DNA of 64,000 nucleotides from Bacteroidota bacterium (GTDB lineage Bacteria; Bacteroidota; Bacteroidia; M30B66). Below are positions 44,800 through 49,296 of the stretch, one piece after another. Location: positions 1-64,000 of the forward strand of contig JAIXUS010000034.1 in assembly GCA_027483445.1 (NCBI GenBank). The letters are read 5' to 3'. Below the pieces are notes generated by a model. The model was not told the origin of the DNA. It was given only the letters and a program-made list of their open reading frames with translations, and made no database searches. A program made the position numbers and the translations under genes. Positions within the stretch are counted from its first letter, which is position 1; each line of letters opens with the position of its first letter.

Positions 44800-44942
44800 T
44801 TAGGCTAACAAATTATTGAGCACTGTACATCCAGCCGTACATGAATTTTCAAAAGTCCAACCTAAAAACCTTGAAATTAAGCCTATTCAAACAGGGATTA
44901 AAGTGCCAAGAAAAAATTATTGAGTGTTTTTCAGTGGCCCTA
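44800..44942 (-). mobile_element. MITE-like element, copy 3 (one end preserved)
   Basis: Read on the minus strand from 44942, it starts TAGGGCCACTGAAAAACACT and continues with CAATAATTTTTT, AAGGTTTTTAG, GACTTTTGAAAATTCATG and TTGTTAGCC. This matches the copies at 21327 and 48088. The far end is not recognisable. Its TAG doubles as the stop codon of the SRPBCC gene. Confidence 0.65.
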
Positions 44943-45389
44943 TGCAAGGTTCGATAACAGGCGCTGATACACCGGCTGTCGAAAGGTAAATACTCGCTTC
45001 AGCTGTGGATAGACGAAAATGGCCGGGATCGGGAAAGGTGTGGTGAAGGTGATGTCGTCGATGATTTCAACATCATTACCGACCTGGATTAATGTGTGCC
45101 TATGCTGCCATGAAGCCAGAAAGAAGGGAAGTTTTCGACCAACATCGACGAATTCGTGGCGCTGACCGGGAACATGGCTTTCGTCGGTGATTTCGCTAAG
45201 CCAACGTTGAGGTGCAAGCGGCAGGAGAAGCTTTACCTCAACCCAATCGCCTTTTTTACATCCATCAAAGCGAAGCAGCTTCGATGCCGGGAATGGGGGA
45301 CTAAGCTGGAGAAATAATTCGCGGTTGAAGTGCGCAAACACAGCATCGACCCTGGCATTGGCCACACGTGTTCGGATTTCCAGTTTCAT
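44940..45389 (-). CDS. SRPBCC-fold (START-like) protein
   Basis: The 149-residue protein has the pattern of ligand-binding SRPBCC proteins (MKLEIRTRVANARVDAVFAHFNRELFLQLSPPFPASKLLRFDGCKKGDWVEVKL...FVYPQLKRVFTFRQPVYQRLL). Similar genes often sit in Bacteroidota carotenoid clusters, where their role is not known. It is the last gene of the sigma-crtB-ispH operon, 6 bases after ispH. Its stop codon comes from the end of a MITE-like repeat, so the C-terminus may have been altered. Confidence 0.75.
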   Translation of the reverse strand: MKLEIRTRVANARVDAVFAHFNRELFLQLSPPFPASKLLRFDGCKKGDWVEVKLLLPLAPQRWLSEITDESHVPGQRHEFVDVGRKLPFFLASWQHRHTLIQVGNDVEIIDDITFTTPFPIPAIFVYPQLKRVFTFRQPVYQRLLSNLA

Positions 45390-45395
45390 GGATGA

Positions 45396-46247
45396 TTAAA
45401 GCTCAAGCAATGCTTTCTGCACGTCTTCCATCAGCCACATTGGAGTGGAAGTAGCACCGCAAACGCCCACTTTGTCGCCTTCCCTAAACCAGGAAAAGTC
45501 GAGTTCATCGACCCGCGAAATAAAGTGTGTTCGGGGGTTTACTTCCTTACACACATTGTAAAGCACTTTCCCGTTCGATGACTTGGTGCCCGATACAAAA
45601 AGCACAACATCGAATTCGGCGGCAAAATTTCGGAGTTCAGAGTCGCGGTCGCTTACTTGTGAGCAAATGGTATCGTGTGCATTTACCTTGATTCCTTGAG
45701 CCTCTAAGGCCTCTTTAGTTTCGCGGAATTTCTGCTTGCTTTTGGTAGTTTGTGTGTAAAGGGTGATTTCGCGGGGAAGGCTTTCTGGCTCCAGTTCAGC
45801 CACATCGGTGAACACAATGCCCTCGTTATTAATTTGTCCCATCAATCCGGTTACTTCCGCATGGCCTTTTTTGCCCATTAGAAAGATGGTTTCTTTCTTA
45901 TCGTATGAGTTGCGGATTCTGTTTTGGAGCTTTAACACTACCGGGCAGGTGGCATCGATCAACGTAATGTTGTTTTCGATGGCCTTTTGGTAGGTTGATG
46001 GCGGCTCGCCATGGGCGCGAATCAGGACCTTCTCATTAAACAGACCGGAAAACTGCTCATGATCAATGATGCGAAGTCCCTTGCTTTTCAAGCGATTTAC
46101 TTCTTCATCGTTGTGCACAATATCGCCGAGGCAGTACAAGTAGCCCTGATCATTGAGAACATCCTCAGCCATTTCTATGGCGTAGACCACTCCGAAACAA
46201 AATCCGGAGTTTGTGTCGATGGTAACAGATAAGTTCCGGCCTGACAT
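45396..46247 (-). CDS. ispH: 4-hydroxy-3-methylbut-2-enyl diphosphate reductase
   Basis: IspH is the last enzyme of the non-mevalonate route and makes IPP and DMAPP. The 283-residue protein keeps the three [4Fe-4S] cysteines at 17 (NSGFCFGV), 101 (DATCPVV) and 195 (DTICSQVSDRD). It has RAHGEPPSTY, GKKGHAEVTGLMG and the C-terminal VGVCGATSTPMWLMEDV. Its place between crtB and the SRPBCC gene ties isoprenoid precursor supply to carotenoid synthesis. Confidence 0.96.
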   Translation of the reverse strand: MSGRNLSVTIDTNSGFCFGVVYAIEMAEDVLNDQGYLYCLGDIVHNDEEVNRLKSKGLRIIDHEQFSGLFNEKVLIRAHGEPPSTYQKAIENNITLIDATCPVVLKLQNRIRNSYDKKETIFLMGKKGHAEVTGLMGQINNEGIVFTDVAELEPESLPREITLYTQTTKSKQKFRETKEALEAQGIKVNAHDTICSQVSDRDSELRNFAAEFDVVLFVSGTKSSNGKVLYNVCKEVNPRTHFISRVDELDFSWFREGDKVGVCGATSTPMWLMEDVQKALLEL

Positions 46248-46292: not shown

Positions 46293-47126
46293 TTAAATCA
46301 AATTGAGCTGGTGGCGGACAAATGACTGAAGAATGAGTGCGTATTTCCGGGCGTCGGGAATGCGAACTCGTTCTTCCAGAATACGTGCAGAGGGTGTATT
46401 GCTAATTTTATTCAGCAGTGCATAGTAGTAAACGTAAGCTACATACACACCAAATCGGGCTCCTTTGGGAAGTTGTTTGATACCGGCAAAACCCGCGTCA
46501 AAGTCGCGTCGGATATCGGCCAAAATCTCAGACTTGGTGTTTTCGTCGAAGCGATCTATTTCCAATTGGGGGAAATACATTCTTCCCAAGGTGAAATAAT
46601 CGTTTTTAAGGTCGCGGAGAAAATTTATCTTTTGAAAGGCTGAGCCAAGCTTCATGGCAGGCTCGCGAAGCCGCTGATACATTTCATCATTGCCTTCGCA
46701 AAACACTCTCAAACACATCAGGCCTACCACTTCGGCAGAGCCCAGAATGTAATCTTCATACCCGGATTGGTCGTACGTCTTCTCCGACACGTCCATTTCC
46801 ATAGAGTGCAGAAAGGTTTCGATCAGGCTTCTGTCGATGTGATAATCATTCACCGCTTGTTGAAAGCTGTGCAGAATCGGGTTAAGGCTTACCTTTCGGT
46901 CGATGGCCTTCCAGGTATCATTTCGGAATTCGAGGAGAAGCTCGTGTGCATCTTCGCGGTGAAAGGTATCGACGATTTCATCCGCGAAGCGGACAAACCC
47001 GTATATGGCATAAATTGGATCGCGAAAGCGGGGCGCCAGCGAGCGAATTCCCAGTGTGAACGAGGTGCTGTAACGCTGCGTGGTGAGGCGGCTACACCGT
47101 ATACAAACGGAGTCGTAAAGATTCAT
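46293..47126 (-). CDS. crtB: Phytoene synthase
   Basis: CrtB condenses two geranylgeranyl diphosphates. The 277-residue protein has the first aspartate motif in IYGFVRFADEIVDTF and the second in FQKINFLRDLKNDYFTLGRMYFP. YILGSAEVVGLMCLRVF is also typical of the squalene/phytoene synthase family. It is 25 bases after the ECF sigma gene. Squalene synthase is the alternative, but the crtY gene and the light-type regulator favour carotenoids. Confidence 0.93.
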   Translation of the reverse strand: MNLYDSVCIRCSRLTTQRYSTSFTLGIRSLAPRFRDPIYAIYGFVRFADEIVDTFHREDAHELLLEFRNDTWKAIDRKVSLNPILHSFQQAVNDYHIDRSLIETFLHSMEMDVSEKTYDQSGYEDYILGSAEVVGLMCLRVFCEGNDEMYQRLREPAMKLGSAFQKINFLRDLKNDYFTLGRMYFPQLEIDRFDENTKSEILADIRRDFDAGFAGIKQLPKGARFGVYVAYVYYYALLNKISNTPSARILEERVRIPDARKYALILQSFVRHQLNLI

Positions 47127-47151: not shown

Positions 47152-47655
47152 CTAACGATAGCCTTTCAGCATAGTCATGAGCTGACGCCGAGCAAGGAAG
47201 ATACGACTTTTTACCGTACCGATTGGCAAATCAAGATAATCTGCAATCTCTTTGTATTTGTAGCCATCGAAGTACATGGTAAATGGGATTTTGTACTCGT
47301 CTTGCAACACCTCAATTTTCTTCAGAATCTCACGCTCTGAGTATTTCGATTCAGGAGCAACAAACTCGCCTTGCTGAGGAATGTTGAGAAAGTACAAATC
47401 CTTGGTTTGGTCGACGATGGTGTTGGTTTTTACCGAGCGGCGGTAGTTGTTGATGAAGATATTCTTCATGATGGTGTACAACCAGGCCTTGAGGTTTGTT
47501 TTGTCAACAAAACGGTGACGGTTGCTGATGGCTTTCAGCAATGTCTCCTGAAGAAGATCTTTCGCTTCCTCATCGTTCGAAGTGAGGTTGAGCGCAAAAT
47601 ACCGAAGCGGTTTGCTTAGGCTGAGAACTTGGGCATTGAATTCAACTGACGACAT
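47152..47655 (-). CDS. ECF-type RNA polymerase sigma factor
   Basis: The 167-residue protein has sigma region 2 (LTSNDEEAKDLLQETLLKAISNRHRFVDKTNLKAWLYTIMKNIFINNYRR) and region 4 (KIPFTMYFDGYKYKEIADYLDLPIGTVKSRIFLARRQLMTML). No anti-sigma gene is adjacent. It heads the operon with crtB and ispH, and the promoter has a palindromic operator in its spacer. Its targets may include other carotenoid genes such as crtI elsewhere. Confidence 0.93.
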   Translation of the reverse strand: MSSVEFNAQVLSLSKPLRYFALNLTSNDEEAKDLLQETLLKAISNRHRFVDKTNLKAWLYTIMKNIFINNYRRSVKTNTIVDQTKDLYFLNIPQQGEFVAPESKYSEREILKKIEVLQDEYKIPFTMYFDGYKYKEIADYLDLPIGTVKSRIFLARRQLMTMLKGYR

Positions 47656-47683
47656 GAGAACGTGGTTTTGTTTAACGTTTTAA

Positions 47684-47713
47684 CAAATGTATTAAACATT
47701 TTCTGTTTAACAA
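47684..47713 (-). promoter_or_regulatory. Promoter of the sigma-crtB-ispH operon with operator palindrome as its spacer
   Basis: The minus strand reads TTG, then exactly 19 bases TTAAACA-GAAAA-TGTTTAA (a perfect 7-bp inverted repeat), then TACATTTG. The operator thus fills the whole spacer between the -33 and -7 elements, as MerR-family operators do. The -7 element ends 28 bases before the sigma factor's ATG. Confidence 0.8.
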
Positions 47714-47724
47714 TACCCGCTACA

Positions 47725-47745
47725 ACATTAAACAAAATTTAATGT
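47725..47745 (-). promoter_or_regulatory. Second operator-like palindrome upstream of the sigma-crtB promoter
   Basis: ACATTAAA-CAAAA-TTTAATGT is a perfect 8-bp inverted repeat with a 5-base spacer, the same layout as the first. Its centre is about 34 bases further upstream, which suits cooperative binding of an oligomeric regulator. I see no gene in 47746-48087. Confidence 0.6.
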
Positions 47746-48087
47746 CGATACACAGAATTTGAATCCCGGAAAACAACCTATGTTCCTGTATACGAGAACT
47801 TTAGGTTAATGTTAAAAAAACTAAACATAGGGGTTAACGCCCACAATTGACCCTGAGAAACACTTCCACAGGTTCTACAAAATCAAAAAACCGGCGGTTA
47901 AACCATCGAATTCATCTTGCGAGCTTGGGTCGTCCAAGGCCTTTCGACAGGTGGAGACTCCGTTTAAACTCATATTAAACCGCCTTTTAATCGGAAGAGA
48001 GCCTGCTCAAGATTCAGAAATGTGGCAGAAGCTAGCGACAAGACGAGCCGACTCGAATACTGCGGGCGGCGCAACAAAGTAGATACT

Positions 48088-48275
48088 TAGGGCCTGCTGA
48101 AAAACACTCAATAGTTTTATTGATAATGCTTTAGCCTTTGTTTGAATTAGACCTAGTACAAAGGTTTTTAGTCGAGCTTTTGAAAATCCATGCACGCTTA
48201 AATTCATGAAGTTCAATTTTTCGTTAGCCAGAAATATAGCATCTGCTGCATTTCTGACTTTTTCAGTAAGCCCTA
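48088..48275 (+). mobile_element. MITE-like element, copy 2 (188 bp)
   Basis: It runs from TAGGGCCTGCTGAAAAA to the inverted TTTTTCAGTAAGCCCTA, bounded by TA. It aligns end to end with copy 1 at 21327-21513. It lies between the MerR/CarH-like gene and the sigma-crtB operator region. Confidence 0.78.
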
Positions 48276-48363
48276 ATAGATGTGTTTGTTGAGGGAACCA
48301 TTCGTTCCACTGCGTAAAACCAGCAATGCAGTGTTGTAAATGGGCGAAAAATCCTTGTGTGGA

Positions 48364-49296
48364 TTAGTCAGTTCCGGTAATGGAACGCAGCGATTTGCCT
48401 TCGCTGAAGTTAATCAAGTCGTAAACTGAACTGATAAATACGACTCCTTCCGGAAGCTCCACGTCGGGGGAGTGAACTTGCATACCAGCCACCAGTAGAC
48501 GTGTGTTGCCAATCCAAGTGGTAAGGTCCTGCAAATACTCGTTAATCGACTCGCTCGTGTAAGCCGCAGTAAAAAAGGTGAGTAGAAACTGAGGCCGATG
48601 CTCCTTGCAGTAAATCCGGAGATCTTCTCTTGGAACATTTTGACCGAGGTAAATAATGCGCTTACCACGGGCTTTCAGGAGATACTTCGAAAAGAGCAAG
48701 CCAATCTCGTGAAGTTCGCCTTCGGGCAGAAACAAGAGATATACTTCGGCCGATGGGTCTTTAGGGGCTGGTATGGAATCGATTTCAACCAACAACTTTT
48801 TGCGAATCAGGTTGGTCATAAAGTGTTCCTGAACAACCGTCGACTCGCCGGTCCTCCACATCATGCCTACTTTTTGCAAAAAGGGAATTACCACATTTAA
48901 CATGGTAAGCTCAAAGCCAACTTTGTCGCAGCAAACCTTCAGGGTAGAGTCAAACAGAGCATCGTCGAAGCTCAGCATGGCCATAATCAGATTGTCTACC
49001 TGAATTTGATGATACTCATCGTGGTTGCCTGAACTGCGCGAAATCTCCGAAACCTTTTTGGAAATTTCAGGAAGACTCCAGCGTGCTACATGGGAAATTT
49101 TAAAGCCGTGGTTCACCAACAATGAAATGTTCAGCAAAAGCTTCACATCGTGATCGTTGTATTGCCTGATATTCGACTCTGTTCTATCGGGGTTAAAGAG
49201 ATTGTAACGCTGCTCCCAAATGCGAATGGTATGGGCTTTAACGCCCGATAACCTTTCCAGATCCTTAATGGTGTACTTGGAATTCAACGGTTGCAT
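48364..49296 (-). CDS. CarH-like MerR regulator with B12-binding domain (probable light sensor)
   Basis: The 310-residue protein begins with a MerR HTH (YTIKDLERLSGVKAHTIRIWEQRYNLFNPDRTESNIRQYNDHDV). The helical cap carries the CarH hallmark W-x9-EH (W147...E157 H158 in MMWRTGESTVVQEHF). The cobalamin-binding Rossmann part has ELHEIG, with His196 as the likely axial ligand, and IIYLGQNVPREDL. In Thermus and Myxococcus, CarH holds adenosylcobalamin and represses carotenoid genes in the dark; light breaks it up. The sigma-crtB-ispH operon just downstream, with palindromic operators, is the obvious target. Confidence 0.88.
   Translation of the reverse strand: MQPLNSKYTIKDLERLSGVKAHTIRIWEQRYNLFNPDRTESNIRQYNDHDVKLLLNISLLVNHGFKISHVARWSLPEISKKVSEISRSSGNHDEYHQIQVDNLIMAMLSFDDALFDSTLKVCCDKVGFELTMLNVVIPFLQKVGMMWRTGESTVVQEHFMTNLIRKKLLVEIDSIPAPKDPSAEVYLLFLPEGELHEIGLLFSKYLLKARGKRIIYLGQNVPREDLRIYCKEHRPQFLLTFFTAAYTSESINEYLQDLTTWIGNTRLLVAGMQVHSPDVELPEGVVFISSVYDLINFSEGKSLRSITGTD

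Follow-up and report, generated by a model that had tools for sequence, protein, structure and literature searches.

The closest described systems are the CarH-type B12 photoreceptor repressors of Thermus thermophilus, Bacillus megaterium and Myxococcus xanthus, whose operators consist of three to five tandem 11-bp direct repeats over a primary-sigma promoter of carotenoid genes; none of the CarH operators characterized in Thermus, Bacillus and myxobacteria uses the -33/-7 promoter of Bacteroidota, a class of the form TTG-N17-23-TAnnTTTG. In the LitR-LitS system of Streptomyces, a B12-binding MerR regulator controls the adjacent ECF sigma gene within a light-carotenoid pathway, and we know of no link of this pair to rhodopsins. 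The classical regulators MerR, CueR and SoxR combine a MerR-fold DNA-binding domain with an inverted repeat at the promoter, where one dimer site and an overlong spacer go together with activation by distortion, and the MerR-like proteins TnrA and GlnR recognize the box TGTNA-N7-TNACA, with a centre spacing of ca. 12 bp.

The locus analysed here shares some features with each of these systems. Its regulator has the domain plan and the cobalamin light signature of CarH, and its putative operator shares with that of CarH the TnnACA half-site core and the position over a primary-sigma promoter, with boxes that cover the spacer and the -7 element. It differs from CarH operators in its outward-facing half-sites at 23–24 bp, arranged in two units, in the -33/-7 promoter and in its predicted targets, an ECF-sigma operon and, often, rhodopsin genes; since the half-sites are inverted at this distance and not direct repeats of 11 bp, the geometry of binding must differ from that of CarH. 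With LitR-LitS it has in common a B12-binding MerR protein next to an ECF sigma gene, whereas phylum, sigma family, promoter class and operator are different. Like the sites of MerR, CueR and SoxR it includes an inverted repeat at a promoter, but the spacer has a normal length and the palindrome that fills it is a junction, and although the half-sites resemble those of TnrA/GlnR in sequence and face outward in the same way, they are about one helical turn further apart. The operator of promoter PB, bound by CarA/CarH in M. xanthus, is likewise large (~55 bp), lies over the promoter and is filled cooperatively; inverted repeats were also noted there, but even relatives do not share them (PMC9304148), whereas the unit conserved at the present locus is the inverted repeat itself. 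We found no earlier report of a CarH operator in Bacteroidota, or of a link between CarH and rhodopsin, in the open-licence papers searched, and an earlier one may exist.

In the window (the whole 64-kb stretch of DNA analysed), the regulator gene is followed on the minus strand by genes for an ECF sigma factor, a phytoene/squalene synthase family protein, IspH and a 149-aa protein:

48364–49296, minus strand: CarH-like MerR regulator of 310 aa (MerR HTH, B12-binding four-helix bundle, cobalamin Rossmann domain)
47152–47655, minus strand: ECF sigma factor gene, first of the predicted controlled operon (PF04542, PF08281; MerR-sigma-crtB synteny in the family)
46293–47126, minus strand: squalene/phytoene synthase family gene, crtB-like (PF00494, 1e-45)
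45396–46247, minus strand: ispH (lytB), isoprenoid precursor enzyme (PF02401, 1e-85; gene order kept in locus L015)
44940–45389, minus strand: gene for a 149-aa protein after ispH (order conserved; L015 has a counterpart with 49% identity in this position)

The best NCBIfam score of the crtB-like product was to HpnD, below the cut-off, and the 149-aa protein gave no Pfam match, resembling SRPBCC proteins by eye only; ispH and the gene after it are probable members of the operon. Between the MerR and sigma genes, an open stretch on the minus strand (48061–48360) looks by eye like a C-terminal transposase remnant, and a 95%-identical species carries different DNA in its place.

The product of 48364–49296 matches Pfam families PF13411 and PF02607 and aligns to T. 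thermophilus CarH (5c8d; E=8e-21) over residues 6–231. We call it only CarH-like because it did not reach the cut-off of the NCBIfam CarH equivalog NF052513 (104 bits, cut-off 400 bits); from these comparisons it appears to be a CarH-like member of a separate Bacteroidia branch and no CarH equivalog as defined by NF052513. The four motifs proposed for the light response, GxxW, EH (Wx9EH), GxxH and GxxxP (PMC11796333), are all present as GMMW-RTGESTVVQ-EH, GELH and GQNVP, and this signature extends over 117 loci (W 98%, E 92%, H 99%, ligand H 98%, G 100%, P 99%), with a looser first G of GxxH (69%). The sequence-only reading had named this neighbour a CarH-like MerR protein, and both the sequence match to 5c8d and the four motifs agree with it. 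The protein could conceivably bind its operator and yet sense B12 status or oxidative stress instead of light, as CarA of Myxococcus binds the CarH operator without B12 (PMC8156234), and the position of H132 in T. thermophilus CarH is here occupied by Arg. However, CtMerR, which also has Arg in this position, retains both adenosylcobalamin binding and a response to light (PMC11796333), the four motifs are conserved, and the candidate targets described below include rhodopsin, retinal and carotenoid genes, so that we regard a signal other than light as unlikely. A cobalamin adenosyltransferase is also encoded in the genome.

On the minus strand, the promoter of the sigma gene consists of TTG, a spacer of exactly 19 bases (TTAAACA-GAAAA-TGTTTAA) and TACATTTG, as the sequence-only reading had described; a second palindrome with a 5-bp centre, noted in the same reading about 34 bp upstream, is also there:

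47725–47745, minus strand: second palindrome, ACATTAAA-N5-TTTAATGT, whose TGTTTAA half is half-site H1
47704–47734, minus strand: CarH-type box 1, TGTTTAA-N17-TTAAACA, with H1 at 47728–47734 and H2 at 47704–47710 (exact pattern match)
47711–47713, minus strand: -33 element TTG (spacing TTG-N19-TAnnTTTG kept in the family, including G009, which lacks H2)
47692–47710, minus strand: spacer palindrome TTAAACA-GAAAA-TGTTTAA, formed by H2 and H3 at the junction of boxes 1 and 2
47684–47691, minus strand: -7 element TACATTTG (TAnnTTTG in nine of nine relatives with the regulator)
47669–47698, minus strand: CarH-type box 2, TGTTTAA-N16-TTAAACA, with H3 at 47692–47698 and H4 at 47669–47675 (exact pattern match)

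Half-sites H1 to H3 had been recognized earlier; the fourth, a TTAAACA lying 8 bp past the -7 element and just ahead of the start codon, had been missed. Together, the boxes span 66 bp that begin ahead of the -33 element and run past the start region, with H2 of box 1 inside the spacer and abutting TTG, the -7 element inside box 2 and half-sites on both sides of TAnnTTTG. Palindromes of the form 7-N5-7 are not rare in themselves, with 11 of any sequence in the window. Pattern GTTAAACA-N5-TGTTTAAT had a single match at 0–1 mismatch in the 4.26-Mb genome, none of its matches there having exactly one mismatch, and at 2–3 mismatches its count was about that of the reversed-pattern control.

Our collection holds ten genomes of this family, nine with the MerR gene and one, G006, without it. 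The genes for MerR, sigma and CrtB lie on one contig in eight of the ten; G003, the ninth, has the same sigma promoter on two short contigs, one of which ends just past the MerR gene and promoter. The promoter TTG-N19-TAnnTTTG with its TTAAACA/TGTTTAA half-sites recurs before the orthologous sigma gene in all nine genomes with the MerR gene, and their alignment shows four half-sites in alternating orientation (H1 TGTTTAA, H2 TTAAACA, H3 TGTTTAA, H4 TTAAACA) at fixed centre distances of ca. 24, 12 and 23 bp, with TAnnTTTG after H3. Box 2 is kept in all nine, with one substitution in H3 of G002, and box 1 in eight; in G009, which retains the MerR gene, TTG-N19-TACATTTG and H3–H4, both H1 and H2 are gone and the spacer palindrome is thus broken. 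The expectation that the palindromes would be found before related ECF operons therefore held for the spacer promoter and its half-sites, but not for the second palindrome, which has both halves only in the window and in a single species at 95% identity; other relatives keep only the TGTTTAA half (H1), and we discarded this palindrome as an independent operator.

To define the unit beyond the family, all pairs of TTAAACA were counted by orientation and distance in 91 MerR loci from outside it (575 kb). Outward-facing pairs occurred 45 times at 23 bp (N16) and seven times at 24 bp (N17), whereas these loci contained two convergent pairs at 12 bp (N5) and no same-strand pairs at 11 bp. For comparison, 104 control words were composed from the same letters; the highest count was that of ATTAAAC (12), which overlaps the box itself, and no other word exceeded 3. 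From these orientation and distance counts, set against the control words, we take the operator unit to be the outward-facing inverted repeat TGTTTAA-N16-TTAAACA, or its N17 form, with 23–24 bp between half-sites, and not the N5 palindrome; the spacer palindrome would then be the meeting point of two such units. A logo of 100 unique boxes (81 N16, 19 N17) reads TTTTGTTTAAY-N14-RTTAAACAAAA, its centre is not conserved, and no hidden third half-site was found within these boxes. Direct-repeat architecture as in CarH was rejected, with no 11-bp tandem signal and no third half-site in the box.

These counts also bear on the idea that the N5 spacer palindrome is itself the operator and that, as in classical MerR activation, a dimer on it untwists an overlong spacer. 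The palindrome does fill the spacer exactly and the neighbouring regulator is a MerR protein, and the sequence-only reading had seen in this the hallmark of MerR control. However, the N5 palindrome is found in only two of the 91 loci, against the abundant N16/17 units, is broken in G009, which still has the promoter and box 2, and fails as a MerR dimer site on both conservation and spacing; in other families, the units leave the spacer unfilled and overlap the -33 element, the -7 element or DNA further upstream. Additionally, the half-sites of the N5 palindrome face the opposite way to those of TnrA, and spacers of 19 bp are normal for this promoter class, leaving no overlong spacer for untwisting to correct. 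Classical activation is thus highly improbable in our judgement, and repression by occlusion fits better. The -7 elements centred inside a box numbered 20 against 3.5 in shuffled sequences, which was the only excess; an apparent tendency of the -7 element to overlap the edge of the box (19 cases) was discarded, being mostly expected from the TTTTGTTTAA consensus.

The MerR-sigma pair occurs throughout the class Bacteroidia. At a threshold of E≤1e-35, the MerR gene was called in 184 of 295 sampled Bacteroidia genomes, and an exact box was present in 153 of these 184 as opposed to 22 of the 111 genomes without the gene (odds ratio 20, p=8e-28; tables compiled by hand). The reversed pattern showed no association (35/184 versus 14/111, p=0.2), and the 22 of 111 is about this reversed-pattern background. 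Because genomes of the same family are not independent, we also used a stratified test within the 20 families that hold genomes of both kinds, which gave an odds ratio of 12.8 (p=1e-8). Since MerR-linked loci were where the box was first identified, the genome-wide association is in part a consequence of how the motif was found; the independent evidence is that of the unlinked rhodopsin sites, presented below. Exact boxes were absent from 31 of the 184 genomes with the gene, which suggests that the motif drifts or that some orthologues differ. Eight genomes of family f8 (G060, G096, G128, G158, G187, G213, G263 and G286) all have the MerR gene and only one of them an exact box, which may mean that the DNA motif of their regulator has changed.

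It could be argued that the boxes belong to another regulator travelling with the MerR-sigma pair, such as the ECF sigma factor itself or a CRP/FNR protein, given that in most loci the sigma gene is linked as closely as the MerR gene. However, G006 retains the sigma gene and has lost this MerR gene and the adjoining crtB, and with them the half-site pairing at the sigma promoter, no exact box being found in its whole genome. Additionally, in five loci the MerR gene is itself immediately preceded by a box, and to our knowledge sigma factors do not bind inverted repeats of this kind. The half-site TTAAACA, moreover, contains TAAACA, which fits the core TnnACA of the CarH repeat nnnnTnnACAn (PMC9304148). 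A different owner of the boxes is accordingly very unlikely. As motif and protein co-occur across the class and the core agrees, the sequences make it very likely that a CarH-type operator is built into a Bacteroidota -33/-7 promoter, as first proposed, with the N16/17 units in the place of the N5 palindrome. The MerR gene of the window has no exact box upstream, and autoregulation was rejected there on this ground. In G006, a different B12-binding MerR gene (L011:1486-2409) lies beside a gene similar to those for isopentenyl diphosphate isomerase, and its own promoter contains ATTAAACA and GTTTAAT half-sites.

Exact boxes elsewhere in the genome of the window point to further candidate targets:

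L168:1501-1530 (G000 C9:40472-40501): exact box 8 bp ahead of the start of a proteorhodopsin-type gene
L171:1501-1530 (G000 C71:218808-218837): exact box before a gene for a four-domain fasciclin protein (PF02469)

The rhodopsin (PF01036, 5e-44; DTE-type residues by eye) is unlinked to the MerR gene. The fasciclin box is kept between the fasciclin and RNA methyltransferase genes in five genomes of the family, with a one-mismatch form in G001. Another exact box (C9:229829, L169) falls within a gene for an LptF/G-like permease, probably by chance. The crtI gene of this genome is unlinked and has no upstream box at ≤2 mismatches.

Across the class, 28 of 59 rhodopsin genes, from 13 of 22 families, are preceded by a box with ≤1 mismatch and a gap of 15–18, which was the case for 4 of 2,950 shuffled upstream sequences (0.14%), the shuffles keeping base composition only. 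The rhodopsin genes with an exact box are mostly on contigs other than that of the MerR gene or far away from it (cases compared by eye), and the MerR gene is present in 60 of 61 rhodopsin-bearing genomes versus 124 of 234 others (p=2e-13). Other genes directly after exact boxes include blh (beta-carotene 15,15'-dioxygenase), a crtI-type oxidoreductase gene and genes for GTP cyclohydrolase I (folE) and 6-pyruvoyl tetrahydropterin synthase (L138, L213, L111, L121 and L160). The light regulon may include pterin synthesis, which could perhaps provide cofactors for photolyase/cryptochrome.

The promoter, the boxes and their conservation, the co-occurrence with the regulator, the candidate targets and the cobalamin signature, all read directly from the DNA, lead us to consider it probable that a double CarH-type operator over a housekeeping -33/-7 promoter confers repression in the dark and release in the light, and that the genes bearing the box form a light regulon. 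Each TGTTTAA-N16/17-TTAAACA unit would be bound by the CarH-like protein encoded upstream, unit 1 covering the upstream region into the spacer and unit 2 the spacer, the -7 element and the start. In the dark, the adenosylcobalamin-bound protein on both units would block RNA polymerase; in the light, breakage of the Co-C bond would release it and the ECF sigma/crtB/ispH operon would be made. Binding, repression and the dependence on adenosylcobalamin and light we infer, with dark repression and light release taken by analogy from CarH (PMC8156234). The same box at unlinked genes (here proteorhodopsin-type and fasciclin; elsewhere folE, blh and the regulator) would define the light regulon, and the ECF sigma factor, once made, may serve further carotenoid genes, such as the unlinked crtI that lacks a box, as a matter of speculation.

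With somewhat less confidence, we favour a light regulon common to the class Bacteroidia, in which the CarH-type B12 photoreceptor would act through the outward-facing operator to control directly proteorhodopsin-type pumps, retinal synthesis and the ECF-sigma/carotenoid operon. If true, this would supply the regulator so far missing for light-induced rhodopsin phototrophy in Bacteroidota, and a single light sensor may govern pigment synthesis as well as rhodopsin-based phototrophy. It predicts that a B12 photoreceptor, and therefore also the supply of vitamin B12, sets the timing of proteorhodopsin making in marine and freshwater Bacteroidota; a defined box also makes the putative light regulon of the whole class readable from sequence. 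Going by the titles cited in PMC3587595, rhodopsin expression in flavobacteria was light-induced at the level of transcription in one case and constitutive in another.

Two further observations concern genes near boxes. The rhodopsin gene of L168 is followed by one for a SnoaL-like protein of 153 aa. Exact boxes also directly precede genes for secreted DUF4397 proteins (L163, L248, L250, L253, L254 and L256), at least one of them with a type IX secretion tail, which makes these proteins candidates for light-induced surface proteins.
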